Of a stretch of DNA of 64,000 nt, positions 37,746 to 63,988 are shown piece after piece. The notes below the pieces were generated by a model. It searched no databases. It saw only the letters and a program-made list of their open reading frames with translations, and had not been told where the DNA came from. Position 1 is the stretch's first letter, and each line of letters starts with the position of its first letter. The stretch spans positions 1-64,000 of IMG/VR virus record IMGVR_UViG_3300035185_000025; one strand, written 5' to 3'. Source of the DNA: a virus. The translations under genes were made by a program, and so were the position numbers.

Positions 37746-38063
37746 ATGACCAATCAAGAATTCTGCTACTGGCTGCAGGGCTTCTTCGAACTGCGCGCCG
37801 AAAACGATGCGCTAACTGCGACGCAGGTTGAGTGCATCCGCCGCCACACCGACCTCGTCAAAGAGAGCCTCGGCAAGCCTGGCCCGGCGGTGCTCGCCAT
37901 TCGGGCCCTGCTTCCCTACGCAGAGCGGAGCGATGACATCACTCGCGCCGTGCAGTCCATCCTCTCCGATGTATTCGAGCACGTCATCGACCCGCAAGCT
38001 GGCGAAGCGTCCCCGCACCTCAGCCACGTTCACAACCCGGGCGGGCCACTCACCCGCTGCTAG
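37746..38063 (+). CDS. conserved phage protein (MTNQEFCYWLQGFFE type)
   Basis: 105 residues. The start MTNQEFCYWLQGFFELR is a widely conserved signature of a small phage protein of unknown function, followed by ALTATQVECIRRHTDLV. First gene of the early operon. The promoter fixes the start. Confidence 0.8.
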   Translation: MTNQEFCYWLQGFFELRAENDALTATQVECIRRHTDLVKESLGKPGPAVLAIRALLPYAERSDDITRAVQSILSDVFEHVIDPQAGEASPHLSHVHNPGGPLTRC

Positions 38064-38072
38064 GAGCAAGCC

Positions 38073-38360
38073 GTGACCGCCATCCCCAGCACCTACAAGG
38101 ACGCGACCAAGCTCAGCGCCAACGCCCGAGCAGCGCTCGCCGCCGCCAGGCTCGTGTGGGACGGGCTGCCCAAGGGCCCAAGGGCCGCGCTCTCAGAAGC
38201 TGTCCGTTATGCGCACGGGAGGTTCCTCGATACCGGTCGCCGCCGAGACATCCAACGACTCCATGACGAAGGTATCGCCATCGGCGCAAGGGTGACGCCG
38301 CTCGGCGAGTTGGTCCGCGAGGCCGGCACGCGCACCAAGATCGAGGTGTCCGGTGGCTGA
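38073..38360 (+). CDS. unknown early protein
   Basis: 95 residues, helical and basic, not recognised. GTG start with GGAG eight bases before it, a normal ribosome site inside the operon. Overlaps the next gene. Confidence 0.6.
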   Translation: MTAIPSTYKDATKLSANARAALAAARLVWDGLPKGPRAALSEAVRYAHGRFLDTGRRRDIQRLHDEGIAIGARVTPLGELVREAGTRTKIEVSGG

Positions 38361-39066
38361 GCGCCCGATCCTGTTCAGCGGCCCGCTCGTGCGGTCGATC
38401 CTCGACGGTCGCAAGACCGAGACCCGGCGGCTGGTCACGAAGGGCACGAGCCAGGTCAGCGACGTCGTCGGCGAGCAGGCTCCCTGGTGCGGTCTCGCCG
38501 ATGCGTCCCGCGCTGGCACATCGATCTTGTTGGTCGGATCTGGTGTTGACGGTCACTTCATCGACTGCCGCATCCAGCCAGGCGACGCGCTCTGGGTGCG
38601 TGAGTCGTGGCAGCCGATCGGCGGAAACATCTACGGACCAGCGGGTGTGATGGTTCGCTACTCGGCCGACGGTCATCCGCGCGACTGTACGGGGACGTCC
38701 GACGCGTGGCGAGTGGCGCGCATGAAGAAGTACGGCCTGCACTGGACACGCGTCGGCGGTCAGCACAAGGGGGAGTGGCCCTCGATCCACATGCCGCGGT
38801 GGGCCTCTCGGATCAGCCTGCGGGTGACCGACGTCCGGGCCGAGCGGGTGCAGGAGATCACCGGAGCGAGCGCTCAAGCAGAAGGCGTCTCGCTGCCTGA
38901 CCCCGGTCGAACTGTGGTCATGCCGCGTTCCGCCATAGACGATCTATATGTCGGAAAATTTGAGGAGCTATGGGACCAGATCAACGGCAAGCGCGACGGC
39001 GCTGCGTGGGCCGATGATCCCTGGGTCTGGGTGATCAAGTTCGAGGTCGCCGAGGTGAAGCGATGA
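38353..39066 (+). CDS. ASCH-like phage protein
   Basis: 237 residues. MAERPILFSGPLVRSILDGR, KTETRR, then QPGDALWVRESWQPI, RYSADG, WPSIHMPRWASRISLRVTDV and RVQEITGASAQAEG are the standard blocks of the phage/prophage protein with an ASCH-type (RNA-binding PUA-like) fold, often annotated as a morphogenetic protein. Molecular role unsettled. Confidence 0.85.
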   Translation: MAERPILFSGPLVRSILDGRKTETRRLVTKGTSQVSDVVGEQAPWCGLADASRAGTSILLVGSGVDGHFIDCRIQPGDALWVRESWQPIGGNIYGPAGVMVRYSADGHPRDCTGTSDAWRVARMKKYGLHWTRVGGQHKGEWPSIHMPRWASRISLRVTDVRAERVQEITGASAQAEGVSLPDPGRTVVMPRSAIDDLYVGKFEELWDQINGKRDGAAWADDPWVWVIKFEVAEVKR

Positions 39067-39290
39067 CGCGCCCGCTCGCCGACAGGCTCAACCCGCCGCC
39101 ACGGCCAGCGGCTCCACGAGCGAACCGCGAACGCAAGGCTCGTGACCGCGGCGAGGCGATCGAGCCACGTCCGGCAACGCTCCGAGCGATCGAGGAGATC
39201 TCGACATTCAAGACCGTCGCGGACATGCTCGCGTCGGACCACGCGTCGAGCGGACCGCGCTGGTGGGACTGCAAGGCAGGCGCCGAGTGA
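39063..39290 (+). CDS. small basic early protein
   Basis: 75 residues, Arg/Pro-rich first half, then TLRAIEEISTFKTVADMLAS. ATG overlaps the preceding stop; its own stop overlaps the next GTG. Not recognised. Confidence 0.55.
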   Translation: MTRPLADRLNPPPRPAAPRANRERKARDRGEAIEPRPATLRAIEEISTFKTVADMLASDHASSGPRWWDCKAGAE

Positions 39291-39412
39291 CCGTCCTGCG
39301 AGCGATCATCGGGCTCGTGCTCGGCTGCGCTTCGTTCGGCGTCGTCATGCTGCTCGTTGCGGCGGCAGTCGTTGTCGGCCGGATCCTCGAGATCGTCTCG
39401 GTGATCCCGTGA
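39287..39412 (+). CDS. 41-residue single-span membrane protein
   Basis: A very short gene with GTG start overlapping the previous stop and a TGA overlapping the helicase GTG. The product is nearly all hydrophobic (AIIGLVLGCASFGVVMLLVA and onwards). Tight coupling on both sides supports a real gene; role unknown. Confidence 0.55.
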   Translation: MTVLRAIIGLVLGCASFGVVMLLVAAAVVVGRILEIVSVIP

Positions 39413-41031
39413 AGCTCCGCGACTACCAGCGCGAGGCCAAGCGCGAGTGCTTGCGCGCGCTCGAGCACAACCGCAGCGCGCTCGTCGCGATGCCGACCGG
39501 GTCCGGCAAGACCGTCACGTTCGCCGACCTCGTCAGGACAGGAGTCGAGCACGGCAGGCGGATCCTCGTGCTCGCTCACCGCGAGGAACTGCTCGACCAG
39601 GCCGCCGAGAAGATCGCTCTCGTCGCTGGCTGTCCAGTTGTGATCGAGCAGGGCTCGCGCAAGCAGGCCGGCGCGGATGACCACGTCGTGATCGCCAGCG
39701 TTTTCTCGATGATCAAGCGGCTCGACAGGTTCGGCGCCGACCGGTTCGATCTCGTTATCGTGGACGAATCGCACCGCGCGCTGGCCCAGACCTATCGAGA
39801 CCTGCTCGACCACTTCGCCGGGGCGAAGGTCCTGGGCTTCACGGCGACTCCGAACCGAGGCGACGAGAAGGCGCTCGCGCAGGTATTCGACACCGTCGCC
39901 TACGACATGACGATCGGCGACGCGATCGGCCTCGGCTGGCTCGTCCCGATCAGGTCGCGGTCGATCAAGCTGCGGTCTCTCGATCTGTCGAAGGTGCGCA
40001 AGCGCCAGGGCGAGCTCGCGGCCGGGGAGCTCGGCACGGTCATGTCCGAGATCGCCGTGCTGCGCGAGGCGATCGTGCCTGCCGTCGAGATTGCCGGGGA
40101 GCTGCAGGCGATCGTGTTCACCGTCACACGGGCGCACATGCACTGCGTGGCGGAGACGATTCGGCGCGTCTCCGAGGAGCGCGCGCTCGAGTTGCCGATC
40201 GCGTGCGTCGACGGGACCACGCCGAAGGACGAGCGCCGCCGGATCATGGCGGACTTCCGGGCCCGCAAGATCCGCTGGCTGATCAACGTCGAGGTCGCGA
40301 CCGAGGGATTCGACGCGCCGGCTGTCGAGGCCGTGATCTTTCTGCGGCCGACGCTAAGCCGGGCGCTGTACCTGCAGATGGGCGGGCGCGGGACTCGTCC
40401 GCTGCCTGGCGTCGTGGACGGGCTCGGCTCGCCTGACGAGCGCAGGGCCGCGATCGCGGCGTCGACCAAGCCGCATTGCCTGTGGCTCGACTTCACCGAC
40501 AACACCTCGCGGCACGACCTCGCCTCGCCGATGGACCTGCTCGGCGGTGACTACGATCTGCCCGAGCAGCGTGAGGCTGAGCGCCTGCTCGCGGCGGGCA
40601 AGGCTGACGATCTGCTCACCGCGCTCGAGATGGCGCGCGCCGCCCGAGCCGCGGTGCTCGTCGAAGCCTGCGCGCGGGCCGGGGATCCGCTCGCGCTGTT
40701 CGGGATCACGTGCTCGAAGGACCGCTGGTCCAGGCCGGCGACGCCGAAGCAGCTTGCGGCGCTCGGGCCCATGCCGCGGCGCCTCGACTTCCGCGAGTCA
40801 AACGCCGTGCTCGCAGAGATCGGCAGGCGAAAGCGCGAGGGCCTGGCGCTCTACGAGCAGCTCGCCGTGCTCGCGCGGCCGAAGATCCGCCACGAGATCG
40901 AGCCGCTACGGACGATGTCGCGGCGCGATGCTTCGTCGCTCGTGCGGACGCTGGCGGATCGGTACTGGCTCGCCGACTGCGGGTGGGAGCGGATCTACGA
41001 CCTGGCCGGGCTCGTGCCGCCGGGAAGCTGA
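39409..41031 (+). CDS. DEAD/DEAH-box helicase (superfamily 2)
   Basis: 540 residues. Motif I MPTGSGKT (about residue 27), motif II VDESH (about 119), motif III GFTATP, and motif VI-like QMGGRGTRP after VATEGFDAPAVEAV are all present, so the ATPase is probably active. The layout fits UvsW or type III-like SF2 helicases of phages acting on branched DNA in replication or recombination. GTG start coupled to the small membrane protein. Confidence 0.88.
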   Translation: MKLRDYQREAKRECLRALEHNRSALVAMPTGSGKTVTFADLVRTGVEHGRRILVLAHREELLDQAAEKIALVAGCPVVIEQGSRKQAGADDHVVIASVFSMIKRLDRFGADRFDLVIVDESHRALAQTYRDLLDHFAGAKVLGFTATPNRGDEKALAQVFDTVAYDMTIGDAIGLGWLVPIRSRSIKLRSLDLSKVRKRQGELAAGELGTVMSEIAVLREAIVPAVEIAGELQAIVFTVTRAHMHCVAETIRRVSEERALELPIACVDGTTPKDERRRIMADFRARKIRWLINVEVATEGFDAPAVEAVIFLRPTLSRALYLQMGGRGTRPLPGVVDGLGSPDERRAAIAASTKPHCLWLDFTDNTSRHDLASPMDLLGGDYDLPEQREAERLLAAGKADDLLTALEMARAARAAVLVEACARAGDPLALFGITCSKDRWSRPATPKQLAALGPMPRRLDFRESNAVLAEIGRRKREGLALYEQLAVLARPKIRHEIEPLRTMSRRDASSLVRTLADRYWLADCGWERIYDLAGLVPPGS

Positions 41032-41049
41032 CGGCGGCGCGGGCGGTAG
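41022..41049 (+). promoter_or_regulatory. class A promoter
   Basis: GGGAAGC at 41022-41028, overlapping the helicase stop, 16 bases, GGTAG at 41045-41049, seven bases to ATG 41057. Confidence 0.8.
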
Positions 41050-41056
41050 CCATCGC

Positions 41057-41692
41057 ATGGAACACGACCTCGAACCGTCGGCCACCGTCACCATCACCCT
41101 GACGAGCTTTGGCAGGCATATCGTCGCCAAGCACTACAGCAGCCCCGAGTGGGACGCAGATCCTCGACGCGACGGGTTGCGGTCTCAGAAGATCCACATG
41201 CCTCTGTGGGAGGCGTTCGCCGTTTTCGGACCGCACATCAAGGGCAGCAACGCGTTGCCAGTGGCCTACCTGTCGGTCCCGTTGCCGGAGGACCCGCTCG
41301 TCGATGGGTTGCGGGTAGAAAACACGTCGCTTGCGCTGGACGCAAAGCGTCGGCTCCGGCTGCTCAGGATGCTCGGCAAGGACATCGGGCTCGGCGACCT
41401 CGACTACTGCTCGCCGGAGGATGTCGAGCGGCGCGTCGAGGGCTACGTCGAAGCGCAGATCCCTCGCATCCCAACTGCCAGCGGACTCTGGTTCTACGGC
41501 GACCGCGTCGTCGAGGTCCTCGACATCGAGCCTGGCTCCGGCGCCGACGGGTTGTTCGTCAAGCTGCGCAACGGCAGGCGCAAGCGCGTCGACCAGATGA
41601 ACGCGAACCTCTGGCTCGGGCCGGCGAGGGTCGACCACCGGATCCCGAAGCTCGAAGCGGACGCGGACAACGACGAGGACATCCCGTTCTGA
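41057..41692 (+). CDS. unknown protein with SSB-type acidic tail
   Basis: 211 residues that end DADNDEDIPF, the form of the SSB C-terminal peptide that recruits replication and repair enzymes in bacteria. The rest (SFGRHIVAKHYSSPEWDADP, LWFYGDRVVEVLDIEPGSGA) does not look like the SSB OB fold, though a divergent one cannot be ruled out. Position between helicase and initiator fits DNA replication. Confidence 0.7.
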   Translation: MEHDLEPSATVTITLTSFGRHIVAKHYSSPEWDADPRRDGLRSQKIHMPLWEAFAVFGPHIKGSNALPVAYLSVPLPEDPLVDGLRVENTSLALDAKRRLRLLRMLGKDIGLGDLDYCSPEDVERRVEGYVEAQIPRIPTASGLWFYGDRVVEVLDIEPGSGADGLFVKLRNGRRKRVDQMNANLWLGPARVDHRIPKLEADADNDEDIPF

Positions 41693-41994
41693 TGAGCCTG
41701 CGCGCCGACGAGACGATCGCCGTGCTGGTCTACGACGGCACGGTGATCTCCGCGCACATGCGAGGACGGCACCGAGACGGCAAGCCCGTCGTCGCGTTCG
41801 GCCGCCGCTGGCGAGTCGTGCAGATCAAGCCGACCGACGGCGCGCGCCTCGTCGAACTGCGGGCTGAGCCGAGCGAGCGGCCGCTCATGTGCTCGGCGTG
41901 CGGGTCCTTCGACGTCGATCAGCCCGACATCGGCGGCGCGTTCGAGTGCTCGGAGTGCCCGCGTCGTGGGCCCGGCAACGGCGTGCTGCTGTGA
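41692..41994 (+). CDS. zinc-ribbon protein
   Basis: 100 residues: a small beta domain (TIAVLVYDGTVISAHMRGRH) and a C-terminal zinc ribbon (MCSACGSFD and CSECPRRG). Overlaps the previous stop (ATGA-type). Role unknown. Confidence 0.65.
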   Translation: MSLRADETIAVLVYDGTVISAHMRGRHRDGKPVVAFGRRWRVVQIKPTDGARLVELRAEPSERPLMCSACGSFDVDQPDIGGAFECSECPRRGPGNGVLL

Positions 41995-41995
41995 C

Positions 41996-42023
41996 GGGAA
42001 GCGCCCGGGCTCGGGCGAGGTAG
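41996..42023 (+). promoter_or_regulatory. class A promoter
   Basis: GGGAAGC at 41996-42002, 16 bases, GGTAG at 42019-42023, seven bases to ATG 42031. Confidence 0.8.
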
Positions 42024-42030
42024 ATCCGGC

Positions 42031-42333
42031 ATGAGCACGAAGCCAGACCCGGCCACCGTCAGTGCAGAGTCACCCAAGGGCCGCGAACGCATCGCGCGGA
42101 TCCACACAAGGATCGATTTCCTCGGGACGTGCGATGGCTACATCGCCAAGGCCGAGGCGTCGGCACTTCGATGGGCGCTCGCTCGGCTCGACTTCCTCGA
42201 GAACCGCGCGCCGAAGATCTCGCAGGCCGCCGCCGCTGACATCATCGAGGCTTGGCGCGTCGACTCGGTCGAGGACCACAACGGCCGGCCGGTGCTCGAC
42301 GGGCTCGACCTCGACGCGCTGGGGATCGGCTGA
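42031..42333 (+). CDS. unknown early protein
   Basis: 100 residues, helical (SALRWALARLDFLENRAPKI), ending in an acidic stretch (GLDLDALGIG). Not recognised. The 147 bases after it contain a short frame (42333-42497) that I do not trust and a leader for the replication genes. Confidence 0.6.
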   Translation: MSTKPDPATVSAESPKGRERIARIHTRIDFLGTCDGYIAKAEASALRWALARLDFLENRAPKISQAAAADIIEAWRVDSVEDHNGRPVLDGLDLDALGIG

Positions 42334-42480
42334 TGGACGCGCAGGCCCGCGCGCGGATCGAACTAGCGCTGGAAACCGACCGCGACCATGCGGTAAAAGT
42401 GGAGAGCCCCAGCAGTGTCAGCTGCCGAGGCTCGGACCGGCACGCGGCCGGATCGACAACCCGAGGAAGGAAGGGCCGCC

Positions 42481-42969
42481 GTGCCCGAAGAACATAGCCC
42501 CGCGCAGGCTCACCGCGCAACACCAACCGGCGATCTGGAGCCGGTGAATCCTCTGCTTCCTTGCGGGCACCGCAAGCTTGCAGGATGCTCTGGATGCGAA
42601 CCGTCGCCTCACGACCCGGCGACAGCAGAGGCGCTGCTTGAGGCGGGATTCTCCAACGACGCCGACCTCGGGCTCGCCGTTCGCCTGTTGGTCACCGAGA
42701 TCGGGATGACCGATTTCTATATCGGATGGGTCTGGGAGATCGTGTTTGGCCATCGAGCGATGCCGACGAAGGCCGAGAGCTTCTCGGTTGGCCCGCGCCG
42801 GACAGCGCTCAAGCGCATCGCCGCCATGTGCTCGCGCGTCGAGTGGCCCTGGCAGAAAGATCTCCCAGAAGGCGTGGAGGTCGCCGTGAGTGACAGGTCA
42901 AACCGACGCTGTCCTCACCTTGTGTTCCACAACCTGCTCGGGTGGCGAGGCGGTGGGGTTCATGACTAG
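42481..42969 (+). CDS. unknown protein before the initiator
   Basis: 162 residues. Cys/His cluster near the N-terminus (LPCGHRKLAGCSGC), then a helical domain (EIGMTDFYIGWVWEIVFGHR). GTG start with GGAAGGAAGGG close upstream, a strong ribosome site. Its stop overlaps the start of the initiator. Confidence 0.65.
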   Translation: MPEEHSPAQAHRATPTGDLEPVNPLLPCGHRKLAGCSGCEPSPHDPATAEALLEAGFSNDADLGLAVRLLVTEIGMTDFYIGWVWEIVFGHRAMPTKAESFSVGPRRTALKRIAAMCSRVEWPWQKDLPEGVEVAVSDRSNRRCPHLVFHNLLGWRGGGVHD

Positions 42970-44017
42970 GCCAGATTGGTGCCCGACGATGCCGCCGTGG
43001 GTCCGCCGGATCCCAGTCGGACGCGGGCGAGATCTCAACGTGACCGCCAGGACCGTGATCGAAGGGCTGTGGTTTTGCGCGCCCGTCTCACGTAGCGGCG
43101 CGATGTTCTCCGGCCCTGTCGATCTCGGCCGGTGGACACCATCTGCGTCCGAGCTTGCGGAGGCAAACGGGCTCAGCCAGGTCAGCGCAAAGAAGGGTTT
43201 GGCGCTTGCGATCTCTGTGGGCTGGGTTACGCGACGAGGCCGATCGCTCGTGCTCGCGTGGGAGTCGCCAGGCAACTTCGGTGATCTTGCGAGGATCCTC
43301 GAGGATCCTCTCAAGGATCCTCTGGGATCCGACGGATCCTCGAGGATCCGGATCCTCGAGGATCCGTCGGAGGATCCTCGGGTAACCGGCCTCGGATCCT
43401 CGGGTAACCGGCCTCGGATCCTCGAGGATCCTTCCATTTTAACTACCCCGCTACCCCAAGCTACCCCACTACCCCAAACGCGCGAGACGTCGATCTCTGG
43501 TGAGCAGTTCGCGCTGATCCCACAGGTGCCCGATCCGGAGCGTGACGCGATCACCGACGCGAAGCTCCGCGCCTGGTGGGCGGAGATCTTCGTGCCGCTC
43601 CGGGCCTCGACCCTCGACGCCTACCGGCCGGGAACCGCGCAACCGATCGCCTGCTCGCCCTCGCGGCTCAAGGCGATCCGTGCGAGGCTCGTCGAGACAT
43701 GCCCCGACGAGACCTGGACCGAGCAGCGCGCGCGCCTGACCCACGTGGTTCGAAACGCAGCCGCACGAGTCCACGAGCACGCGGGGGCCGAGACCTCGTG
43801 GGGCTGGAGTTCGCTCGACGCGATCCAGCCGAAGCACTGGACCGCCGAGAAGAACTTCACGCGGTACTACGAGGCTCCGCCGTCTGACCAAGCCGCCGGG
43901 AAGCAAGCGCCAGACGTCGAAGTCATCGGTGGCGTGGTCCAATACCCACGAGCAGACGGCACCGACTGGGGCACCGCGACGGCCTACGGGGATCCGGCCC
44001 GGAGGCGTCCTCGATGA
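42962..44017 (+). CDS. replication initiator (lambda O-like organisation)
   Basis: 351 residues: an N-terminal winged-helix-like domain (WTPSASELAEANGLSQVSAK), a repetitive linker (about 110-180) encoded by dense DNA repeats, and a helical C-terminal domain (AARVHEHAGAETSWGWSSLD). The DnaB-type helicase gene follows with a four-base overlap. The order initiator with internal repeats, then helicase, is that of lambda O-P and similar phages. Binding of the repeats by this protein is inferred. Confidence 0.75.
   Translation: MTRPDWCPTMPPWVRRIPVGRGRDLNVTARTVIEGLWFCAPVSRSGAMFSGPVDLGRWTPSASELAEANGLSQVSAKKGLALAISVGWVTRRGRSLVLAWESPGNFGDLARILEDPLKDPLGSDGSSRIRILEDPSEDPRVTGLGSSGNRPRILEDPSILTTPLPQATPLPQTRETSISGEQFALIPQVPDPERDAITDAKLRAWWAEIFVPLRASTLDAYRPGTAQPIACSPSRLKAIRARLVETCPDETWTEQRARLTHVVRNAAARVHEHAGAETSWGWSSLDAIQPKHWTAEKNFTRYYEAPPSDQAAGKQAPDVEVIGGVVQYPRADGTDWGTATAYGDPARRRPR
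43291..43476. other. candidate replication origin inside the initiator gene
   Basis: About 145 bases contain some dozen GGATCC hexamers, mostly as CTCGAGGATCC palindromic units, including two tandem copies of a 21-base unit starting GGATCCTCGGGTAACC. They are followed by a less GC-rich stretch (CCATTTTAACTACC) and four CTACCCC repeats at 43443, 43451, 43461 and 43469. Iterons beside an easier-melting stretch inside an initiator gene is a classical origin layout. Confidence 0.7.
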
Positions 44018-45537
44018 GCGACCAAGGTCTCCCCAACAACCCTGCGGCCGAGCTCGCCTGCATCGCGGCGATCTACGCTCGAGGGATCCCAGGTCTCGAC
44101 ACGGTGGTCGCCGAGGTGCGCGACGCCGAGGCGTTCTTCGTGCCCCGCAACCGGGCGCTGTTCGCCGCCATGCTGGCCTGCGCAGACGCGGCCGAGCCGA
44201 TCGCCGACCAACAGATCTTGAGCGAGCTTCGGCGCCTCGGTGAGTTCGATCGAGTTGGCGGCGAGTCGGCGATCGCCTACATGCGATCGGGGATCACGAC
44301 GAGGACCGAGGACGCGGCGAGGGCCGTGCGTCGCGACTACCTCCGGCGGCAGTTGTTCACGCAGCTTCGCGAGGTCTCGGAGCTGCCGCTGCGGAGCGAC
44401 AACGTCGGCGAGTCGATCGCCGCCGTGCGTCAGGTGCTCGACAGGCTCGAGCGCGACCAGGCGCAGCTCCGGGTGTCGATCCGAGAGGCCGTCGCGGAGA
44501 CGCGCACGGAGCTCTACGCGGACCCATCGGAGGCGACTGGGCATGTACCCATCGGCTTCGACTCCGTCGACTCCTACGCCGGCGTGAGCGAGCCTGGGGA
44601 CCTCGTGATCCTGGCCGGCGAGTCGGGCACCGGGAAGACGGCGGCGCTGCTGTCGTGGATCCGAAACGGCGTGCTCTCGTGGAACCGCGAGTCGGAGCGG
44701 TACCGACCTCGACAGATCCAGATCCCGGCGCTCATGTTCTCGGGCGAGATGCTTCTCCCGAAGCTCGTGCGGCGATGGTTGTCCGACATGGCGCAGATCG
44801 ACGGCCGCGATCTGCGAGGTCGTCTCGACGCTGGCTGGCTCGAGTCTCGACGCGACGGCAAGACGCACCGGCAGATCGTGGAGCGCGAGCTCGACCTGCT
44901 CGCCGCCTGCGAGATCGAACTGACCAGGCCGGAGGCTTCGACCGAGATCGACGGGATCGCTGCGATCTCCAGGGCGTGGCGCGCGACGAAGGTGGCGAAG
45001 TACGGCGCGAGCTCACCGGGTTTGATCGGCGTCGACTTCTTGCAGCTCGTAGAGCCGCCGTCCGGCCTGCCGCGCAACGCTCGGAGCGACGAGCGCGAGG
45101 AGGCGAAGGCGAAGTCGCTCAAGCGGCTTGCGATGTCGACGGGCACGGTGGTCACGGCGCTCTCGCAGCTCACGGTTCCGACTGGCCGAGAAGGCGAGCG
45201 CCCGAAGGTATCGTGGCTGCGCGGGAGCAAGGGGATCCGCAACGCCGCGGACAGGATCTACCTGCTCCACAGGCCGTGGATCCACGACAACAACGTCGAC
45301 GACCGCGAGGCCGAATACCAGCGCCTTCGTGGGCTGTACAACGAGGGCCGACTCGGCGATCAGGCCAAGCGCTTCCACGGGCTCGAGCGCGCGCGGCACT
45401 ACGCCGAGTTGGGGATCGCCAAGGGTCGAGACGGCGCGGCGTTCCGCTGGCTGCCGCTGGACTTCGCGCCCGAGTACACGCGCTTCCTGGACCGGCGCGG
45501 AAGCGACGACTACGCCGGAGGGTACGACGGCCGATGA
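44014..45537 (+). CDS. dnaB: DnaB-type replicative helicase
   Basis: 507 residues. The N-terminal domain (NNPAAELACIAAIYARGIPG) and the RecA-type core are those of DnaB: Walker A GESGTGKT (about residue 208), Walker B LIGVDFLQLV, an arginine-finger region WLRGSKGIRNAADRIYLL. Length is normal. ATG overlaps the initiator stop (ATGA). Confidence 0.9.
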   Translation: MSDQGLPNNPAAELACIAAIYARGIPGLDTVVAEVRDAEAFFVPRNRALFAAMLACADAAEPIADQQILSELRRLGEFDRVGGESAIAYMRSGITTRTEDAARAVRRDYLRRQLFTQLREVSELPLRSDNVGESIAAVRQVLDRLERDQAQLRVSIREAVAETRTELYADPSEATGHVPIGFDSVDSYAGVSEPGDLVILAGESGTGKTAALLSWIRNGVLSWNRESERYRPRQIQIPALMFSGEMLLPKLVRRWLSDMAQIDGRDLRGRLDAGWLESRRDGKTHRQIVERELDLLAACEIELTRPEASTEIDGIAAISRAWRATKVAKYGASSPGLIGVDFLQLVEPPSGLPRNARSDEREEAKAKSLKRLAMSTGTVVTALSQLTVPTGREGERPKVSWLRGSKGIRNAADRIYLLHRPWIHDNNVDDREAEYQRLRGLYNEGRLGDQAKRFHGLERARHYAELGIAKGRDGAAFRWLPLDFAPEYTRFLDRRGSDDYAGGYDGR

Positions 45538-45935
45538 CCACCGCGACCGCGCCGCCGGCCGAGCTTCGGGCGCGTGCCCTGATGGAGCTGTGCGCCGACT
45601 TCATCGAGCGGGCCGAGGCCAAGGCGAGGTCCGGCGACGGCGACGATGATCGGCGGCTGAGCTTCCTCGTGGCCCTCGACGAGCTTCGGCGCGTCGCGGA
45701 GCGTCGCCCGCTACGACAGGCACCTCCAGGCGCCAACCACCGACACGCTGCCGTGGACAAGTTCGCCCGGATGGCCAGGGCGTCGCTCGACTCCGTCGCC
45801 GAGCGCACCCGAGAGCTCGAATGGAGGCACGCGGCGCTCGAGCTGGATCTCGCCAGGACATCGTCTGTGCTCGAACGCCGCATCCGGGACCACCGTCGGG
45901 CTCGACGCCTGCTGAGGGCAGGATCCACGTCTTGA
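45534..45935 (+). CDS. helical protein coupled to dnaB
   Basis: 133 residues, helical and basic (DKFARMARASLDSVAERTRE), not recognised. ATG overlaps the helicase stop. A helicase loader or accessory is a guess from position. Confidence 0.6.
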   Translation: MTTATAPPAELRARALMELCADFIERAEAKARSGDGDDDRRLSFLVALDELRRVAERRPLRQAPPGANHRHAAVDKFARMARASLDSVAERTRELEWRHAALELDLARTSSVLERRIRDHRRARRLLRAGSTS

Positions 45936-45952
45936 AATCTTCTACGACTCGC

Positions 45953-45968
45953 GCAACCCTACGGGTGC
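45953..45968. promoter_or_regulatory. operator-like half palindrome at the XRE gene
   Basis: GCAACCCTACGGGTGC, one good arm (ACGGGTGC) and one weaker. It ends three bases before the ATG at 45972 and covers the -10-like TACGGG, so binding would repress the gene itself. Confidence 0.55.
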
Positions 45969-45971
45969 GCC

Positions 45972-46244
45972 ATGCCGACCCGCCTCACCAGCACCAAGCT
46001 TGCGACCGTCGGACGACGGTGGTCGACGGCCGTCCGAACGGAACTCGGTCGGCAGAGCAAGACGCTCACCGATGTCGCCAAGTCTGCCGGAGTCACGCGC
46101 CAATACCTGGGCCGCGTGCTCGACGGTCGGACACCCACCCTACCCGTCGAGACCTACCTCGCTGTCTGCAAGGCGCTCTCGATCGACCCTAACCGCTACG
46201 CCAAGATCGACAGGAGTACACCGCCATGGGAGTCATCCAAATGA
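45972..46244 (+). CDS. XRE-family helix-turn-helix regulator
   Basis: 90 residues. The helix-turn-helix of the Cro/CI type is clear: LTDVAKSAGVTRQYLGRVLD followed by VETYLAVCKALSIDP. There is no C-terminal oligomerisation or protease domain, so it is Cro-sized. The operator-like site over its own start suggests autoregulation; similar sites elsewhere suggest a regulon. Confidence 0.85.
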   Translation: MPTRLTSTKLATVGRRWSTAVRTELGRQSKTLTDVAKSAGVTRQYLGRVLDGRTPTLPVETYLAVCKALSIDPNRYAKIDRSTPPWESSK

Positions 46245-46900
46245 GCCGCCAGAATTCCAACCCCGACCCAGACGACCCGCAGTTCGTGAAGGCCCGCGCC
46301 TTCGATGTGATCTCCGCCCTCGCCTCCGCGCGCGCGCGCCTCGAGAAGCAGAAGGCCGACGCGCTCGCCAAGTGGACGAAGCTCCTCAGCGACAAGACCA
46401 AGCAGTACCGAGAGATCCTGCGCGACCCTGACCACCACAAGGCCGGGCAGAAGGCGAAGGCCGGGTACTTCGACAGCGTCGTTGGACTCGTCCAGGAGCG
46501 CGACGGGCTCAACGAGGACAAGAAGTCCGACATGGCGGCGCGTAAGGCCAAGATCGCCAAGATCGACGAGGCCGACGCCGAAGCCAAGAGCGCGAGCAAG
46601 TCAGGCGACGGCGCCCAGATGGCGCTCCTGCAGGACGCGAGCAAGGTCGCCGGCATGCCGTGGGCGACCGACGGCACGCTCGGTGTCGTCTACGCGGCGC
46701 TGCTGCACCTCGACGAGGCCGGCGCGGATCTCGACGACGACCAGCGCGCGCTGCTTCAGGAGCTCGCGGAAGTCGACATCGAAGGCGCGGACCTCGGGCT
46801 CTCCGCCGAGGAGGCGATCGAGGACGACAGCGAGGTCGAGGCGTTCGAGTCCGAGGACGACGAGGAGGTCGACCTCGACGACGAGACGTTGCCGTTCTGA
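46241..46900 (+). CDS. coiled-coil protein with SSB-type acidic tail
   Basis: 219 residues: helical first half (ASARARLEKQKADALAKWTK), a middle domain (MPWATDGTLGVVYAALLHLD) and a very acidic end finishing DLDDETLPF, like the SSB C-terminal peptide. Next come exonuclease and RecT genes, so a role with DNA ends, such as a Gam-like factor, is possible. ATG 46241 overlaps the XRE stop; ATG 46226 is an alternative. Confidence 0.7.
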   Translation: MSRQNSNPDPDDPQFVKARAFDVISALASARARLEKQKADALAKWTKLLSDKTKQYREILRDPDHHKAGQKAKAGYFDSVVGLVQERDGLNEDKKSDMAARKAKIAKIDEADAEAKSASKSGDGAQMALLQDASKVAGMPWATDGTLGVVYAALLHLDEAGADLDDDQRALLQELAEVDIEGADLGLSAEEAIEDDSEVEAFESEDDEEVDLDDETLPF

Positions 46901-46904
46901 TCTC

Positions 46905-46932
46905 GGGAAGCTGACGGCGAGCCCGTTGGTAG
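46905..46932 (+). promoter_or_regulatory. class A promoter (recombination genes)
   Basis: GGGAAGC at 46905-46911, 16 bases, GGTAG at 46928-46932, seven bases to ATG 46940. Confidence 0.8.
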
Positions 46933-46939
46933 AGCGAGC

Positions 46940-47554
46940 ATGAGCACCGAGATCGAGCACCCATTCTCCGACAACCACGCGCCGCTCTGGTCGCAAGCGG
47001 CCCCGAGCGACGCGCAACTCGGGGCCGCTCTGCGCAAGATCGCCGAGGCCAACGGCCAGACCACGAACGGGTTCGCCTACTACGCGAAGCGGTTTGTCGA
47101 GTGGGCGAGCGATGACGAGTGGCTGTGCCGGATGTCGAAGCGCAAGATCCACCGCGTCAAGATCTTCGTGCAGCCTGCCGGCCAAATCGACGGCGTACTC
47201 GAACGCGCCGTCGAGATGCTCGCGGGTCACAACGTTCCGGGGACGGTGTCCGCAGCGTTTGGTGAAGACGAGACCTTCGAGCAACTTCGGCGCGAAACGA
47301 TCAAGCTCCGCGCGCTCCTGGACGCCGAGACGGCGCGACGAAAATCAGCCGAGGAGAGGGTCAATGTTCTGTCCGAGGCACTCGATAAGGCCCACGGAGA
47401 GCAACGCCAGGCAGAGATCGACTATGCCTCGATGAATGCCAGCCTCGAACGGATCGTTGGCGAGCGGCGCCAGGCAGAGATCGACTCCGCTATGCTGAAG
47501 GCCAAACTCGACCGGCTCGTCGCCGTGCTGAGCGAGGTCGCCGGTGACGCCTGA
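46940..47554 (+). CDS. coiled-coil protein before the exonuclease
   Basis: 204 residues with a long helix in the second half and an internal repeat (GEQRQAEIDYASMNASLERI and GERRQAEIDSAMLKAKLDRL). Not recognised. First gene of the exonuclease-RecT operon; it overlaps the exonuclease gene by 11 bases. Confidence 0.65.
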   Translation: MSTEIEHPFSDNHAPLWSQAAPSDAQLGAALRKIAEANGQTTNGFAYYAKRFVEWASDDEWLCRMSKRKIHRVKIFVQPAGQIDGVLERAVEMLAGHNVPGTVSAAFGEDETFEQLRRETIKLRALLDAETARRKSAEERVNVLSEALDKAHGEQRQAEIDYASMNASLERIVGERRQAEIDSAMLKAKLDRLVAVLSEVAGDA

Positions 47555-48467
47555 GATCCAGGACCTCGAACCTGGCCAGGCGATCACCGTCGACTGGACC
47601 GCGGCCGAGTACCACGCCGACCGCGAGTGCGTGAGCCGATCGATGCTCGTGGATCTCCCGGAGAATCCGGCGATCTTCATCGCCAAGCAGCGCGGCGAGA
47701 TCGAGCCGGCATCGTCGAAGGCGCTGGACTTCGGGACGCACGTGCACCTGGCCCTGCTCGAGCCCTCGGAGTGGAGCCGTCGCCTGTTCGCTCCGGCGCC
47801 CGCGAAGCCGGAAGACGCCGACGGACGCCGAAAGGCCGGGAGCCCGGAGCGCAAACTCTACGACGCCTGGAAGCTTGAACTGGCCGAGTGGAACGCCGCG
47901 CTCGAACTCCGGCCCGACGCGATCGTGCTGAGCGAGGATGCTCGATCCGCAGTCGAGCGCTGCGCCGGCTCCATGCGCGCTCACCCGATCGTCGCGGCTC
48001 TGTTCGACGCCCCCGGGTCCAACGAGCAGACCGTGATCTGGCGATGCCCCGATCCAGATGTGCTCGTGCGCGTCCGCTGCGATCGCATCGCGTTCCCCGA
48101 CGCCGACACCGTGGTGGTGTTCGACGCGAAGACGACAGTGAACCCGAGCCCGGAAGCGTTCGGCAAGTCGATGGCGGTCTACGGCTACGACGTCCAGGGC
48201 GCACTCTACAGCGACGCCGTGCGGGCGCTCCACCCAGGCAAGGCCGTCCACTTCATCTTCGGCGCGGCGAGGTCTCGCGCGCCATGGGAGGCCGCCTGCT
48301 ACTCGCTCGAAGCCGAGGAGTACGAGGCCGGACACCGCAAGTACATGGCTGCGCTTCACGATCTCGTGCGGCGCCGAGAAACGAACGACTGGATCGCGCA
48401 GTGGCAGCGCGGACTCAACCAAGCCCGGATGCCACGATGGGCACTCACACAGGACCACGACCAATGA
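47544..48467 (+). CDS. RecE-like PD-(D/E)XK exonuclease
   Basis: 307 residues. SRSMLVDLPENPAIFIAKQR, LDFGTHVHLALLEP, VRVRCDRIAFPDADTVVVFD-AKTT and YGYDVQGALYSDAV are the landmarks of the RecE/DUF3799-type nuclease fold; the D and K of FDAKTT are the catalytic pair. It should resect double-strand ends for the RecT protein encoded next. GTG start. Confidence 0.85.
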   Translation: MTPEIQDLEPGQAITVDWTAAEYHADRECVSRSMLVDLPENPAIFIAKQRGEIEPASSKALDFGTHVHLALLEPSEWSRRLFAPAPAKPEDADGRRKAGSPERKLYDAWKLELAEWNAALELRPDAIVLSEDARSAVERCAGSMRAHPIVAALFDAPGSNEQTVIWRCPDPDVLVRVRCDRIAFPDADTVVVFDAKTTVNPSPEAFGKSMAVYGYDVQGALYSDAVRALHPGKAVHFIFGAARSRAPWEAACYSLEAEEYEAGHRKYMAALHDLVRRRETNDWIAQWQRGLNQARMPRWALTQDHDQ

Positions 48468-49234
48468 CCAACGCAGCGCTAGCTACCACCACCAAAGACG
48501 ACCGCAGCCTCAACGCGTTCAGCTCCGCTGACGCGTTCGAGACCGCCCAACGAATGGCGAGGGCACTCGGCGCGAGTTCGCTCGTTCCGGCCGAGTACCG
48601 CGGGAACATCTCGAACGTGATGATCGCCATGGAGCTCGCGGCGCGGATCGGCGCGTCCCCGTTCGCGGTGATGCAGAACCTCGACATCATCCACGGCCGG
48701 CCGAGCTTCCGATCAACCTTCCTGATCGCGACCGTCAACGCGTGCGGCCGCTTCACCCCGCTTCGCTTCCGCTTCGAGGGCGAGCCCGGCACGCAGGCGT
48801 GGGGGTGCCGCGCCTACGCCAAGGACACGAAGTCCGAAGATGAGTGCGTTGGGACGCTGATCACCATGGGCCTCGCCAAGGCCGAGGGATGGACCAACAA
48901 GAAGGGCTCGAAGTGGCTGACGATGCCGGAGCAGATGCTCATGTACAGGGCCGCCGCGTTCTGGACACGCGTCTACGCGCCGGAGTTGAGCCTCGGCATG
49001 CACACCCGCGAGGAGCAGGAGGACGTCCATTTCGCGGGGCAGGTCGAGCGCGCGCCGAGCATGCTCGAGCAGAAGCTCATGCAGATCAACACGCCGGCGC
49101 AGGCCGACGAGGAGCCGCAGCTTGTCGACGTCGAGCGCGTCGAAGAGCCGGCCGAAGCCGATGCGCAGCCGGAGCACGTCGAACACGACCCGGACACGGG
49201 CGAGGTCTACGGTGTCGAGGACGACGGGAAGTGA
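48464..49234 (+). CDS. recT: RecT-family single-strand annealing protein
   Basis: 256 residues. The conserved core MELAARIGASPFAVMQNLDI, GRPSFRSTFLIATVNACGRF, TNKKGSKWLTMPEQMLMYRA and AAFWTRVYAPE fits RecT-type annealing proteins of phages. An acidic tail follows. ATG overlaps the exonuclease stop, the usual RecE-RecT arrangement. Confidence 0.85.
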   Translation: MTNAALATTTKDDRSLNAFSSADAFETAQRMARALGASSLVPAEYRGNISNVMIAMELAARIGASPFAVMQNLDIIHGRPSFRSTFLIATVNACGRFTPLRFRFEGEPGTQAWGCRAYAKDTKSEDECVGTLITMGLAKAEGWTNKKGSKWLTMPEQMLMYRAAAFWTRVYAPELSLGMHTREEQEDVHFAGQVERAPSMLEQKLMQINTPAQADEEPQLVDVERVEEPAEADAQPEHVEHDPDTGEVYGVEDDGK

Positions 49235-49253
49235 TCGGCGCGGTCGACGGTAG
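49226..49253 (+). promoter_or_regulatory. class A promoter
   Basis: GGGAAGT at 49226-49232, overlapping the recT stop, 16 bases, GGTAG at 49249-49253, seven bases to ATG 49261. Confidence 0.75.
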
Positions 49254-49260
49254 GCCGGAC

Positions 49261-49425
49261 ATGAGCGCACGTGAGAAACTCGGACCATACGTCTGGGACA
49301 TGGTCGTCAACCGACCGGACGAGCCGATCTGGTGGGGCGCGGACATACCATCGCTGAAGCCGTCCGACGTCCGCGAAATCTGGGACGCGCGACGGGACGC
49401 TCATGCCAAGAGGTCGAAGTCATGA
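49261..49425 (+). CDS. small unknown protein
   Basis: 54 residues (GPYVWDMVVNRPDEPIWWGA), not recognised. First gene of a run to 51180 of closely coupled small genes. Confidence 0.6.
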   Translation: MSAREKLGPYVWDMVVNRPDEPIWWGADIPSLKPSDVREIWDARRDAHAKRSKS

Positions 49426-49856
49426 ATCGTGAGGCGGCACTAGCCCACGGGCGCGAGTGGATGGCGGCCGGATGGGAGCTGAAGCCGGGCCAGGTCCTTC
49501 GGCATGGCGAAGACACCGGGGCCATCGTCCTGGTTGTCGGTGTCCATCTCGCCGAGCGCGGAGCCGAGGGCTACTGGCTCGATCTTGTGCGCCTCGGAAC
49601 GGGCGAGAAGATTCACCGACGAGCGCGGCACTATGTTCCCGACCCGCGAGACGACGGGTTCCTCGGTCACGCGCTCGCGCAGGTCCGTCGTGCGTGGGGT
49701 TGGATCGTCGAGGTAGACGTGCTCGCCGATGCCGACGGGTTCGAGGTCGTCTGCCCCGACCTGCGAGGCGATGACCGTGAGTTGGTTGGCGAGCTTCGGT
49801 TCGGAGGCAACACCGAGTCCGAGGCCCTGCTCGCCGCTCGGAAGGCCGCACCGTGA
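49422..49856 (+). CDS. unknown protein
   Basis: 144 residues: helical start (ALAHGREWMAAGWELKPGQV), beta-rich middle, and an end (PDLRGDDRELVGELRFGGNT). Not recognised. Overlaps both neighbours by four bases. Confidence 0.6.
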   Translation: MNREAALAHGREWMAAGWELKPGQVLRHGEDTGAIVLVVGVHLAERGAEGYWLDLVRLGTGEKIHRRARHYVPDPRDDGFLGHALAQVRRAWGWIVEVDVLADADGFEVVCPDLRGDDRELVGELRFGGNTESEALLAARKAAP

Positions 49857-50374
49857 CCGTCGTCATCGACCCCGGCCGCAAGACCGGCGTGGCGATCTAC
49901 GAGGGCACCACGCCGATCGTCGCGGCCTTCACCGACGCGACACCGGCCGAGGCCCACGACCTGCTCAGCTGGTCGAAGGCGCGCGGGCACACGCACCTCG
50001 TGGTCGAGGATCAGCATGCGCCGCGGGATCCGAAGCGCTTCTCGTGGCCGCGGCTCATGACCCTCGTCCGCAGCGCTCACCGGTGGGTGGTGATCGGCGA
50101 GTTGCTCGGGTTCGTGATCGAGCGTCCGAAGTCGAGCGAGTGGCAGAGCGTCATGTTCCGGCCGATCCCGACGCACGACGTGGACACCGGGAAGAAGCTC
50201 ACGACCAAGCATCGCAGCAAGCTCGTCGTCGCGGCGACCTTCGATTGGCTTCCACGGTTCAAGCAGGGCGAGTCCCCCGAGGACGCGAGGCTCGTGCCCG
50301 CCGCGAAGCTGCCGCACGACATCTGCGACGCGGTCGTGATGGGCCGCTGGCACCGCCTGCACAGGAGCAGCTGA
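49853..50374 (+). CDS. RuvC-like Holliday junction resolvase
   Basis: 173 residues with the RNase H-type fold of RuvC-like resolvases: TVVIDPGRKTGVAIYEG carries the first catalytic Asp, HLVVEDQHAP the Glu, and KLPHDICDAVVMGRWH the last Asp pair. It probably cuts branched DNA made by recombination and replication before packaging. GTG start coupled to the previous gene. Confidence 0.8.
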   Translation: MTVVIDPGRKTGVAIYEGTTPIVAAFTDATPAEAHDLLSWSKARGHTHLVVEDQHAPRDPKRFSWPRLMTLVRSAHRWVVIGELLGFVIERPKSSEWQSVMFRPIPTHDVDTGKKLTTKHRSKLVVAATFDWLPRFKQGESPEDARLVPAAKLPHDICDAVVMGRWHRLHRSS

Positions 50375-56544: not shown

Positions 56545-58554
56545 GTGCCCGTAAACCCGCGCCTGAGCAAGCTCCGCGTCCTGGGGCTCGAAGAGACCCC
56601 GCGCGCGCGGCTCCTGACGATGCGCTGGCTCTACTACGAGCAGCGCCAGGACGACGGGTGCTCGGTCGACTGGGAGGGCTATCAGCGCACGTCTGGAGAG
56701 CAGTTCTTGGAGTGGCGAATGCGCGGCTACGTCCGCGCGGATCAGGGCTCGATCCCGTGGGGCCAGAAGCGACCTACCTGCCACTCGATGATCGTCGGCG
56801 AGACCGTCGACACCTACACGTCGCTCCTGCTCGGCGACGGCCGCCAGCCCGCGATCAGGATCGCTGGCGACGACGCGAGCTCCGAGGCGATCGAGGCGCT
56901 GTTCAAGCACGCTGGGATCTGGCCCGTGCTCGCCGAGGGTCGCAAGCACGGCGGCGCGCAGGGAGCCTTCGGCATGCTCGTCGAGGTCCGCAAAGGGAAG
57001 CTCTCGACGCGAGTCCTTCGGCCCGAACATCTCCACATTGAGTGGTCCGACGAGTGCGACTGGATCCCTGAACTCGTGATCGAGCAGAAGCGCGTCACGA
57101 TTTATCGGATCGGATCGAGCGGCAAGGTCGAGTGCGGCGAGGTCTGGCGGACGCGGGCGTGGGATCAGACCCACAGCTACGCCTACCACGACCAGCCGAT
57201 CGGGACTTACACGCCGGTCGACGACGACGGCACGAAGACCGAGTTGCCCGAGGACATCGAGTTGAGCGAGGCGCCGGTCGAGCACAAGGCCGGCCGCTGC
57301 CCGGTGGTGTGGGTCCAGAACACGCTGTGCTCCGACGAGCCGCTCGGAGTCCCCGACTGCGAAGCGGTCTACGAGCAGGTCGACCAGCTCGACAAGTCGA
57401 TGTCGATGGTCATGCGCGGATCGAGGGCCAACAACGATCCAACGCTGGTGGTGAAGGACACGCAGTCCGGCCTCAACCAGTGGACCCGCAGGCGCAAGGG
57501 CTACGGCGCCGAGATCACGGTCTCGGAGAAGGGCGCCGTCGAACTGCTCGAGACGTCGGGCGCCGCGATCGACCAGTCGTGGAAGTCGATCAACGCGCTC
57601 GAGTCCAGGATCGAGCGGCGCACCGGTGTCGTCGCGATCACGCCCGAAAAGGCGAGCTCAAACTGGTCCGGCGTCGCGCTCAAGATCCTGCACCGCACGC
57701 AGATGAGCCGCGCCGGCGAGCGCCGCAACCCGATCGGAGTCGGGATCAAGCAACTCGTGCGGATCGTGCACACGCTCCTGCGCGAGCTCGGAATGCGCAA
57801 CGTCGGCAGCACGGGCAAGGGGATCGAGATCCCGCAGGCCGAGCGCAAGATCACCGCGGACGACGGCACGATCGAGACCGTCCGCGATCCCCACCAGATC
57901 GGGCCTGGCGGCGCTGTCCGGCTCAACTGGCCAGCGCTTCATGAGCCGATCCCGGACGAGCTTCGAACCGTGGCCGACGCGCTCACGAAGATGAACGGCG
58001 GCCGCCCCGTGCTCTCGCAGGAGACGGCAGTCGCGTACGCGGTCAACCTCGCGCAGACCGACACGGATCCAGCGATGGAGCTCGAGCGGATCCGCGAGGA
58101 GACGGCGGAGAAGGTCGCGGCCTTCGACGAGACGATGATGCCGGATGTCGAGGACGGCGGCGAAGGCGAGCCGGACATGCCGGACACCGGCGACGGAACG
58201 CAGACGGGAGATCAGCAAGTGCAGCACGAAGCGATGAACGGCATCCAGGTCAAGACGCTCGGAGACACGCTCGCTCGGACCGGCCGCGACCTCACCCCGG
58301 AGGCGGCGAAGTTCACGATCAACGAGGGCTTCCCGAACACGACCATGCCCGATGCGCAGCGCAGGCTGAACGAAGCGATCCAGGCGCAGCTCGAGCAGGT
58401 TGCTCAGGACAAGAAGGACGGCGTCGAGCCCGAGGCTGGAAAGCAGTTCGACACGCTCGGCCGAGCGATCACTCGGCGCGCCAAGGCCACAGCGGAGCCG
58501 AAGGCCGAGGAGTCCGAAGACGAGCCTGAGTCCGAAGACGAGGAGACCGAGTGA
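56545..58554 (+). CDS. portal protein
   Basis: 669 residues. EASRLLTMRWLYYEQRQDDG-type start (residues 15-35), later SDEPLGVPDCEAVYEQVDQL and the stretch VKDTQSGLNQWTRRRKGYGA fit the SPP1-type portal layout. A long acidic C-terminal tail is unusual but harmless. Follows terL by 23 bases. GTG start six bases after GTGGTAGCCT, the only clear late-type signal of this kind on the plus strand. Confidence 0.75.
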   Translation: MPVNPRLSKLRVLGLEETPRARLLTMRWLYYEQRQDDGCSVDWEGYQRTSGEQFLEWRMRGYVRADQGSIPWGQKRPTCHSMIVGETVDTYTSLLLGDGRQPAIRIAGDDASSEAIEALFKHAGIWPVLAEGRKHGGAQGAFGMLVEVRKGKLSTRVLRPEHLHIEWSDECDWIPELVIEQKRVTIYRIGSSGKVECGEVWRTRAWDQTHSYAYHDQPIGTYTPVDDDGTKTELPEDIELSEAPVEHKAGRCPVVWVQNTLCSDEPLGVPDCEAVYEQVDQLDKSMSMVMRGSRANNDPTLVVKDTQSGLNQWTRRRKGYGAEITVSEKGAVELLETSGAAIDQSWKSINALESRIERRTGVVAITPEKASSNWSGVALKILHRTQMSRAGERRNPIGVGIKQLVRIVHTLLRELGMRNVGSTGKGIEIPQAERKITADDGTIETVRDPHQIGPGGAVRLNWPALHEPIPDELRTVADALTKMNGGRPVLSQETAVAYAVNLAQTDTDPAMELERIREETAEKVAAFDETMMPDVEDGGEGEPDMPDTGDGTQTGDQQVQHEAMNGIQVKTLGDTLARTGRDLTPEAAKFTINEGFPNTTMPDAQRRLNEAIQAQLEQVAQDKKDGVEPEAGKQFDTLGRAITRRAKATAEPKAEESEDEPESEDEETE

Positions 58555-60614: not shown

Positions 60615-60779
60615 GTGCCATACCGCGACGACCGCCCGCGCTGCCCGACCTGCGCCGAGCCGGCCGAAGGCTACGACGCGATGTGGGACTACCACCGCTG
60701 CCCGAACGGTCATCGATGGGACGGGCCGGTCAACGGTGGCCCGCCCGTCAGCCGCTCACAGGACGGCAGCAGGCGGTGA
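60615..60779 (+). CDS. small zinc-ribbon protein before MuF
   Basis: 54 residues with CPTCAEPAEGY and HRCPNGHRW, a one-ribbon protein. GTG start six bases after TACGCT. Its stop overlaps the MuF gene start. Confidence 0.6.
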   Translation: MPYRDDRPRCPTCAEPAEGYDAMWDYHRCPNGHRWDGPVNGGPPVSRSQDGSRR

Positions 60780-62891: not shown

Positions 62892-63115
62892 TGGCTGAGT
62901 ATACAAAACGCCTGCACGAGCCCGGCCTTCGAGATGAACTCGACGGCGTCTTGCTCCTCAAATCCCACGAGCGCCATGGAGCGCTGGTCGTACCACCCGG
63001 ACGGGCCCCACGACCCTGCGTCCATCTTCGAGACGCGGGCAACAGCGGCTCCTGTGCTGTCGTTCACGCGGTATGTCGCGCCGGGTCGACCAGTGATCGA
63101 GTTCGGACTGTTCAT
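62888..63115 (-). CDS. small protein between Dam and the MuF end
   Basis: 75 residues (ATYRVNDSTGAAVARVSKMD, FEEQDAVEFISKAGLVQAFC), not recognised. Coupled by ATGA overlaps to the methyltransferase before it and the Cys-rich protein after it. Confidence 0.55.
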   Translation of the reverse strand: MNSPNSITGRPGATYRVNDSTGAAVARVSKMDAGSWGPSGWYDQRSMALVGFEEQDAVEFISKAGLVQAFCILSQ

Positions 63116-63918
63116 GCCGCACCCCGCGGATACACGCCGCGCCGGTCACCCGTGCGCACGTAGAGCGTCCCGAGCGAGGCGAAGTAGCGCGCGAACTCCT
63201 TGACGTCGATCGGGTGCTCGGCGCCCTCGTCTCGCAGCCCGTAGCGCCCGACGCGGTCCGCCCAGAACCCGACGAGAGACGGGAACGGCGCTGCCTGTGG
63301 GATCGCCGGCTTGCCTGGCTTGCCCGAGACCTCTGGCCCCACGGCGAGCCCAGGCCCGACGATCCTGAACGGCGCGGGCAGCTTCTTCTTCTTCGACGCC
63401 CACGGCCACCACTTCTGGAGGTAGTAGTCCGGGTCCGCCGACTCCGCGGCGACCTTGCGCGTGATCGGGATCGGCCGCCAGAACGTGAGCCGGCCCTTGA
63501 CCTCGACCCAGGCGTCGCACGAGCGATGGATCCCGGCCACGATCTTGACGCTGTTGCCGGACTTCTTGGTCCCGCCCTGCATCCAGCGCGTGTCGGTCCG
63601 CGCCGGCAGCAGGATGACGCCCGGCATGCCTACCTCGACGTGCCAGTGGTGCGAGGTCTCGATGCAGTCCTCGATCTCGGATCCGTACGGCGGGTTCTCA
63701 TAGCTGCAGTCCGCGTCGGTCCAGCGGATGTCGTGGCCCGAGACCCGGATCCCGTCGGCGATCAGATCCGCGCCGACTTGGCTCGCGTCGTTCGTCCACG
63801 GATCGATCAGCGTCCGGCCCGCGCCCGGTGGCACGAGCAGGCTTCGCATGCGCGTGATGATCTTGGGCGGTGAGCAGTAGTGCATGGACTTCGAAGTGAG
63901 GCACGCCGCGATCTTCAT
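63112..63918 (-). CDS. Dam-type DNA N6-adenine methyltransferase
   Basis: 268 residues. MHYCSPPKIITRMRSLLVPP, LIDPWTNDASQVGADLIADG, YENPPYGSEIEDCIE with the catalytic NPPY, ILLPARTDTRWMQ and RLTFWRPIPIT match the phage Dam family. It would methylate phage DNA, perhaps against restriction. The start is fixed by a class A promoter whose spacer is the palindromic operator. Confidence 0.8.
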   Translation of the reverse strand: MKIAACLTSKSMHYCSPPKIITRMRSLLVPPGAGRTLIDPWTNDASQVGADLIADGIRVSGHDIRWTDADCSYENPPYGSEIEDCIETSHHWHVEVGMPGVILLPARTDTRWMQGGTKKSGNSVKIVAGIHRSCDAWVEVKGRLTFWRPIPITRKVAAESADPDYYLQKWWPWASKKKKLPAPFRIVGPGLAVGPEVSGKPGKPAIPQAAPFPSLVGFWADRVGRYGLRDEGAEHPIDVKEFARYFASLGTLYVRTGDRRGVYPRGAA

Positions 63919-63925
63919 GGCTGAC

Positions 63926-63953: not shown

Positions 63954-63981
63954 GGGAAGCACCCGGGGCCCGCCGAGGTAG
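63954..63981 (+). promoter_or_regulatory. class A promoter
   Basis: GGGAAGC at 63954-63960, directly against the divergent -35 (GCTTCCCGGGAAGC), 16 bases, GGTAG at 63977-63981, seven bases to ATG 63989. Confidence 0.8.
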
Positions 63982-63988
63982 TCCATGC

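Follow-up and report, generated by a model that had tools for sequence, protein, structure and literature searches.

Why should the middle of a putative replication initiator gene in an uncultured phage be packed with palindromic repeats, and do these repeats mark the place where the phage genome starts to replicate? The window analysed here, a stretch of 64,000 nucleotides, is the first 64 kb of the 81,566-base phage record IMGVR_UViG_3300035185_000025, a genome of 67% GC. Pattern scans showed that one relative, IMGVR_UViG_3300017971_000026 (84,078 bases), carries the same initiator-helicase gene pair. An earlier note on this DNA had proposed a lambda-type origin inside the initiator gene, a proposal that is supported by the layout of the locus and by the array found in the relative, while replication itself is something we infer. 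The cluster is very probably a phage replication origin that lies inside its own initiator gene and consists of two modules, the iterons and a meltable entry site with an ACCC array, that serve the phage's own helicase. The locus comprises the following elements.

42962 to 44017, plus strand: putative replication initiator gene (P0001, 351 aa) with the origin inside it; an open reading frame with a homologue in the relative (L004:5007-6131).
42962 to 43291, plus strand: initiator N-terminal domain, residues 1-110, the proposed iteron-binding winged helix; 25% identity to the relative, low-confidence models.
43293 to 43431, no strand assigned: iteron array of seven 16-bp dyads, mostly at 22-bp pitch; the strongest repeat cluster of the record.
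43328 to 43371, no strand assigned: perfect palindrome of 44 bp where two dyads abut; an inverted repeat with 22-nt arms and no gap.
43431 to 43445, no strand assigned: low-stability (meltable) spot between the iterons and the CTACCCC array; 99.98th percentile.
43443 to 43475, no strand assigned: four CTACCCC repeats (4 x ACCC), which on the minus strand are four GGGG runs; the only ACCCx4 array in the record.
43553 to 44014, plus strand: initiator C-terminal domain, residues 198-351, the proposed helicase-recruiting part; 75% identity to the relative.
44014 to 45537, plus strand: DnaB-type replicative helicase (P0002), with Pfam and PHROG matches.

The helicase assignment of P0002 comes from its matches to PF03796 (E=1.3e-25), PF00772 (E=4.9e-8) and phrog_19 (E=3.1e-45). 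Its start codon shares four bases with the stop codon of the initiator gene (ATGA, 44014-44017), which bears out the earlier observation that the helicase gene follows the initiator directly. The initiator gene belongs to a block for replication and recombination that includes SF2 helicase, DnaB, exonuclease VIII-like, RecT-like and resolvase-like genes, most of which are kept in the relative. In its layout, the locus matches in-gene iteron origins that are paired with a phage helicase, like those of phages P22 and L.

GGATCC occurs 14 times across the whole initiator gene, and exactly 12 of these copies fall within the 139 bases of 43293-43431, in agreement with the dozen or so GGATCC-centred repeats reported previously. 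The dyads start at 43293, 43315, 43334, 43350, 43372, 43394 and 43416, giving spacings of 22, 19, 16, 22, 22 and 22 bp; four of the seven are the perfect palindrome GGATCCTCGAGGATCC, one reads GGATCCTCTGGGATCC and two read GGATCCTCGGGTAACC. Both copies of GGTAACC in the cluster stand at the right-hand GGATCC position of a dyad (GGATCCTCGGGTAACC compared with GGATCCTCGAGGATCC), and because they occupy the same half of the same dyad, we treat all units as one degenerate iteron family. The earlier division into two iteron families thereby gives way to a single family, and the CTACCCC array counts as an element of its own; the tandem unit, formerly given as 21 bases, measures 22 bp. The cluster reaches 69 repeated 8-mers per 150 bp, the runner-up site in the whole record 19, and the same scan of repeated 8-mers made no further origin-like repeat cluster evident in either phage record. 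The 44-bp palindrome at 43328-43371 could form a cruciform or an mRNA hairpin; the relative is without it and has instead a perfect inverted repeat of 19 bp around a 39-nt loop.

Dyads are also the typical architecture of operators and centromeres, and iteron arrays can act in copy control besides initiation. The cluster might accordingly be an operator or a partition/incompatibility site through which the protein represses its own operon or segregates the genome, with replication starting elsewhere. We consider this unlikely, since the array lies in mid-gene, more than 300 bp past the start codon and not at a promoter, and since iteron-like sites outside the array (allowing up to 3 mismatches) are only isolated and weak, which speaks against a dispersed operator. 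The adjoining low-stability spot and the neighbouring helicase suit an origin better. GC skew has no turning point at 43.4 kb and supports neither side.

The initiator gene carries GGATCC in each of its three frames and CTACCCC in two, and the 22-bp pitch, not being a multiple of 3, shifts the frame at every step. In a re-coding test, we held the peptide of the 186-bp linker fixed and redrew its codons from the phage's own usage in 2,000 trials; the linker exceeds the maximum over all trials in repeated 8-mers (74 observed, 41 at most), in GGATCC (12 observed, 7 at most) and in CTACCCC (4 observed, 1 at most). Codon choice for a fixed peptide cannot generate the iteron cluster. Because the repeats span frames and exceed all re-codings of the same peptide, selection on the DNA is the natural reading, and the earlier view that the DNA rather than the low-complexity linker is selected gains support. 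The relative, with a differently spelled array at the same place and the same four-repeat element, also points to selection on DNA.

Comparison with the relative divides the initiator in two. The helicases of the two phages are 80% identical and the initiator C-terminal domains 75% (116/154), whereas the N-terminal domains are only 25% identical (27/108). DNA identity stays at background over 42701-43500 and is 0.6-0.9 beyond, so the N-terminal domain and the origin have diverged, or been replaced, as a block. The linker of the relative holds nine CGGATCAAACCATCCG-type units, 22 bp apart with one 13-bp step and in all frames; eight of the nine contain GATC, eight share the same orientation, and they are only weakly symmetric (6-14 of 16 positions). 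This array is the relative's top local repeat, with 45 repeated 8-mers against 23 at the runner-up, and it has the same place and the same 22-bp pitch as that of the window but another sequence, the GGATC half-site being all that the two iteron sets have in common. The earlier note had named relatives in which the protein linker stays and the DNA repeats are gone as evidence against an origin; in this one relative, it is the linker sequence that is lost and a different array that is kept.

The comparison covers two genomes because one relative was found. Neither cultured phages nor plasmids yielded a further relative by tblastn, and pattern scans of viral contigs (for initiator, helicase and terminase) and of bacterial genomes gave this one only; phages with distantly related terminases are without the initiator and without a close helicase. 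Several candidates were set aside along the way: two of the distant-terminase phages have repeat clusters upstream of DnaB that are ordinary, an exact iteron-pair scan returned isolated chance matches in two contigs, and the p53 matches count as noise, as do those to Sphingobium and Rhodococcus plasmids (E of 3 or worse).

Immediately beyond the iterons, the duplex softens. By nearest-neighbour stability, 99.98% of the 15-bp stretches in the window are more stable than 43431-43445, which substantiates the less GC-rich stretch that had been noticed after the iterons, and the short AT-rich stretch 43432-43444, TTCCATTTTAACT, joins the iteron array to the CTACCCC repeats. In the relative, 40 bp from 32481 are less stable than 99.99% of its 19-kb locus on the nearest-neighbour measure; in both phages the iteron/ACCC junction is among the softest spots of the sequence. 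In lambda-type origins, this place is taken by the AT-rich tract, although the meltable tract beside the iterons here is far shorter and less AT-rich than that of lambda.

On the far side of the soft spot stand four CTACCCC repeats, the number originally reported, with starts at 43443, 43451, 43461 and 43469 (spacings of 8, 10 and 8 bp); the four ACCC copies of the relative are spaced 9, 10 and 10 bp. Across both genomes and both strands, ACCCx4 with 3-7 bases between copies occurs once per genome, both times at the origin. From the last iteron to the first ACCC there are 12-13 bases in the window (43432 to 43445, measured from the last 18-bp dyad, which ends at 43432, to the first ACCC at 43445) and 14 in the relative. 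ACCCx4 was absent from all 60 genomes of 82 kb that were simulated with the dinucleotide composition of the window, a figure that is indicative, as the pattern was defined after both origins had been seen; the match in position was not built into the pattern. Codon redraws yielded ACCCx4 in 0 of 20,000 cases for the window and in 132 of 20,000 for the relative.

These observations also bear on the idea that the array is a selfish or slipped repeat, functionless, that has grown in a tolerant protein linker. The linker is indeed of low complexity, and its protein is 16% identical to that of the relative, as such tolerance would allow. However, the array of the relative differs in sequence while pitch and place are the same, neither genome has dispersed copies, and repeat expansion on its own does not predict an ACCCx4 array at the same distance in both phages, so that we find this explanation barely credible.

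The minus strand of the array carries four G-runs in series, GGGGTAGTGGGGTAGCTTGGGGTAGCGGGG, with a G4Hunter score of 2.17, which is the window's extreme, and its sequence makes a G-quadruplex at the CTACCCC array possible. The four G-runs at the same place in the relative score 0.97, which is unremarkable there, and the motif itself follows from ACCCx4; given this weak score, we make no claim of a conserved G-quadruplex function. More tentatively, and with some doubt on our part, the ACCC array might be a second sequence-specific origin module that stays constant while iterons are replaced and that the conserved C-terminal domain or the helicase reads, either single-stranded or folded into a G-quadruplex. 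If this were true, the origin would have two separable locks, one pairing the N-terminal domain with the iterons and the other pairing the C-terminal domain or helicase with the ACCC array.

Palindromes can be read in RNA as well, and hairpins in the mRNA might control translation of the initiator or of the coupled helicase. As RNA, the two linkers fold much more strongly than shuffled sequence (z of -7.4 in the window and -6.7 in the relative), and the window has its 44-bp perfect palindrome, yet arrays with inverted copies fold strongly by construction. Eight of the nine units of the relative share one direction, and their symmetry is weak; the hairpins of the two phages differ in place and shape, and no Rfam match lies within 38000-50000. 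Control by hairpins would, moreover, leave the 22-bp phasing, the low-stability spot and ACCCx4 unexplained, and we regard it as very unlikely.

For an origin inside the initiator gene, we propose a mechanism in which the variable N-terminal domain would bind the seven dyads, phased at 22 bp, as a row of dimers, and the bound iteron array would strain and open the low-stability spot at 43431-43445. The exposed strands, with their four ACCC/GGGT repeats, would then offer an entry or second recognition site, the ACCC array acting either as a single-strand site for helicase or initiator or as a structure that holds the strands apart. The conserved C-terminal domain would bring the phage DnaB-type helicase, the product of the overlapping next gene, and host primase and polymerase would then take over. 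DNA binding, melting, helicase loading and the actual start of replication are steps that we infer from the P22, lambda, SPP1 and RepA_N systems (PMC8022706, PMC7466680, PMC6316719, PMC5703833), and the system may work like O or gp18.

Among known systems, gene 18-12 of P22 and L is a closer model than lambda O-P because a phage DnaB-type helicase follows the initiator directly. In the parts of the published account that we draw on, P22 and L have repeats within the initiator gene 18, related phages differ in these repeats, and gene 12 encodes a DnaB-type helicase partner (PMC8022706). The likeness, in-gene repeats that differ between relatives together with a DnaB-type helicase partner gene, is one of layout without initiator homology; unlike in P22 and L, the origin here is GC-rich and continues past the iterons into an ACCCx4 array, which does not appear in those parts of the P22/L description. 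In lambda and the Stx phages, ori-lambda lies in the middle of gene O, with iterons, whose number differs between relatives, followed by an easily melted tract (PMC7466680), an order that is shared by the present locus. In contrast to lambda, the helicase itself comes next and not a P-type loader, the melted tract is short and succeeded by C-rich repeats, and no O homology was found.

Two further systems place an origin within an initiator gene. The oriL of Bacillus phage SPP1, in gene 38, combines direct repeats with an AT-rich element (PMC6316719) and resembles the present origin in its repeats within the initiator gene and a DnaB-family helicase close by; SPP1, however, has the loader gene of gp39 before that of the gp40 helicase and a second origin, oriR, neither of which is seen here. 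In staphylococcal RepA_N plasmids (pSK41, pPR9), origin boxes lie in mid-rep, the N-terminal domain binds them and the centre is linker only, and the N-terminal domain and origin are exchangeable while the C-terminal domain stays (PMC5703833). The same pattern is found here, with the origin in the gene centre and the N-terminal domain and origin changing while the C-terminal domain stays, but the initiator has no RepA_N match, the C-terminal domain of those proteins contacts primase, and the present element is a phage and not a plasmid.

P0001 has no match in Pfam, PHROG or NCBIfam and no homologue among cultured phages, and we do not file it as an O-family member for this reason. Its C-terminal domain alone has no Pfam match, a RepA_N domain (PF06970) was not found in it, and no homology to lambda O or O-like initiators was detected; judged by these searches, the initiator appears to belong to no known family among the collections covered. 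The relative's protein, and only that one, weakly matches PHROG 391 'replication initiation O-like' (E=0.074), and the N-terminal domain is predicted to have the helix/strand order H-E-H-H-E-E of a winged helix in two models too poor to establish such a fold (pLDDT 34 and 40). Both are leads only.

The locus comes from an unsampled lineage of phages and offers an initiator-helicase pair whose initiator is without a match in the protein-family and cultured-phage collections searched. The two phages amount to a natural experiment in which the N-terminal domain and iterons changed together and the C-terminal domain, helicase and ACCC array stayed, and the pair makes the split between specificity and helicase loading in in-gene phage origins directly testable. 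It also raises the question of whether a C-rich, G-quadruplex-capable repeat can replace the usual AT-rich entry site in a genome of 67% GC.

Several observations lie beside this argument. In the sequence searched, GATC density peaks at the iterons of both phages, at 13 per 150 bp in the window (43293-43431) and 9 in the relative (L046:10292-10520; G002:32291-32519), against an average of about 2. Initiation might conceivably be under methylation control, given that GATC is densest at the iterons and that both phages carry possible DNA methyltransferases. These are a possible Dam-like enzyme at 63112-63996 on the minus strand (PHROG 111, E=1.3e-4, weak) and a possible N6/N4-type enzyme at L049:3909-4739, minus strand (E=1.3e-6), each with a relative in the second phage; a possible C5-type enzyme lies at L049:14639-15460, minus strand (E=2.8e-14). 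A 6-pyruvoyl-tetrahydropterin synthase/QueD-like gene (L049:17046-17453, minus strand; record 81046-81453; PTPS, E=1.6e-21) has no match in the relative and, from its sequence, could point to deazaguanine DNA modification. In an unrelated phage contig (L048:4347-5558, minus strand), an initiator-like protein has a long repeated stretch, GPAPVVNGSTNRATTG twice, and this gene could be another in-gene repeat origin. A second protein, with a weak portal-family match (PHROG 859, E=4.4e-8), is encoded at 60683-62692 on the plus strand, the portal itself being at 56545-58554.
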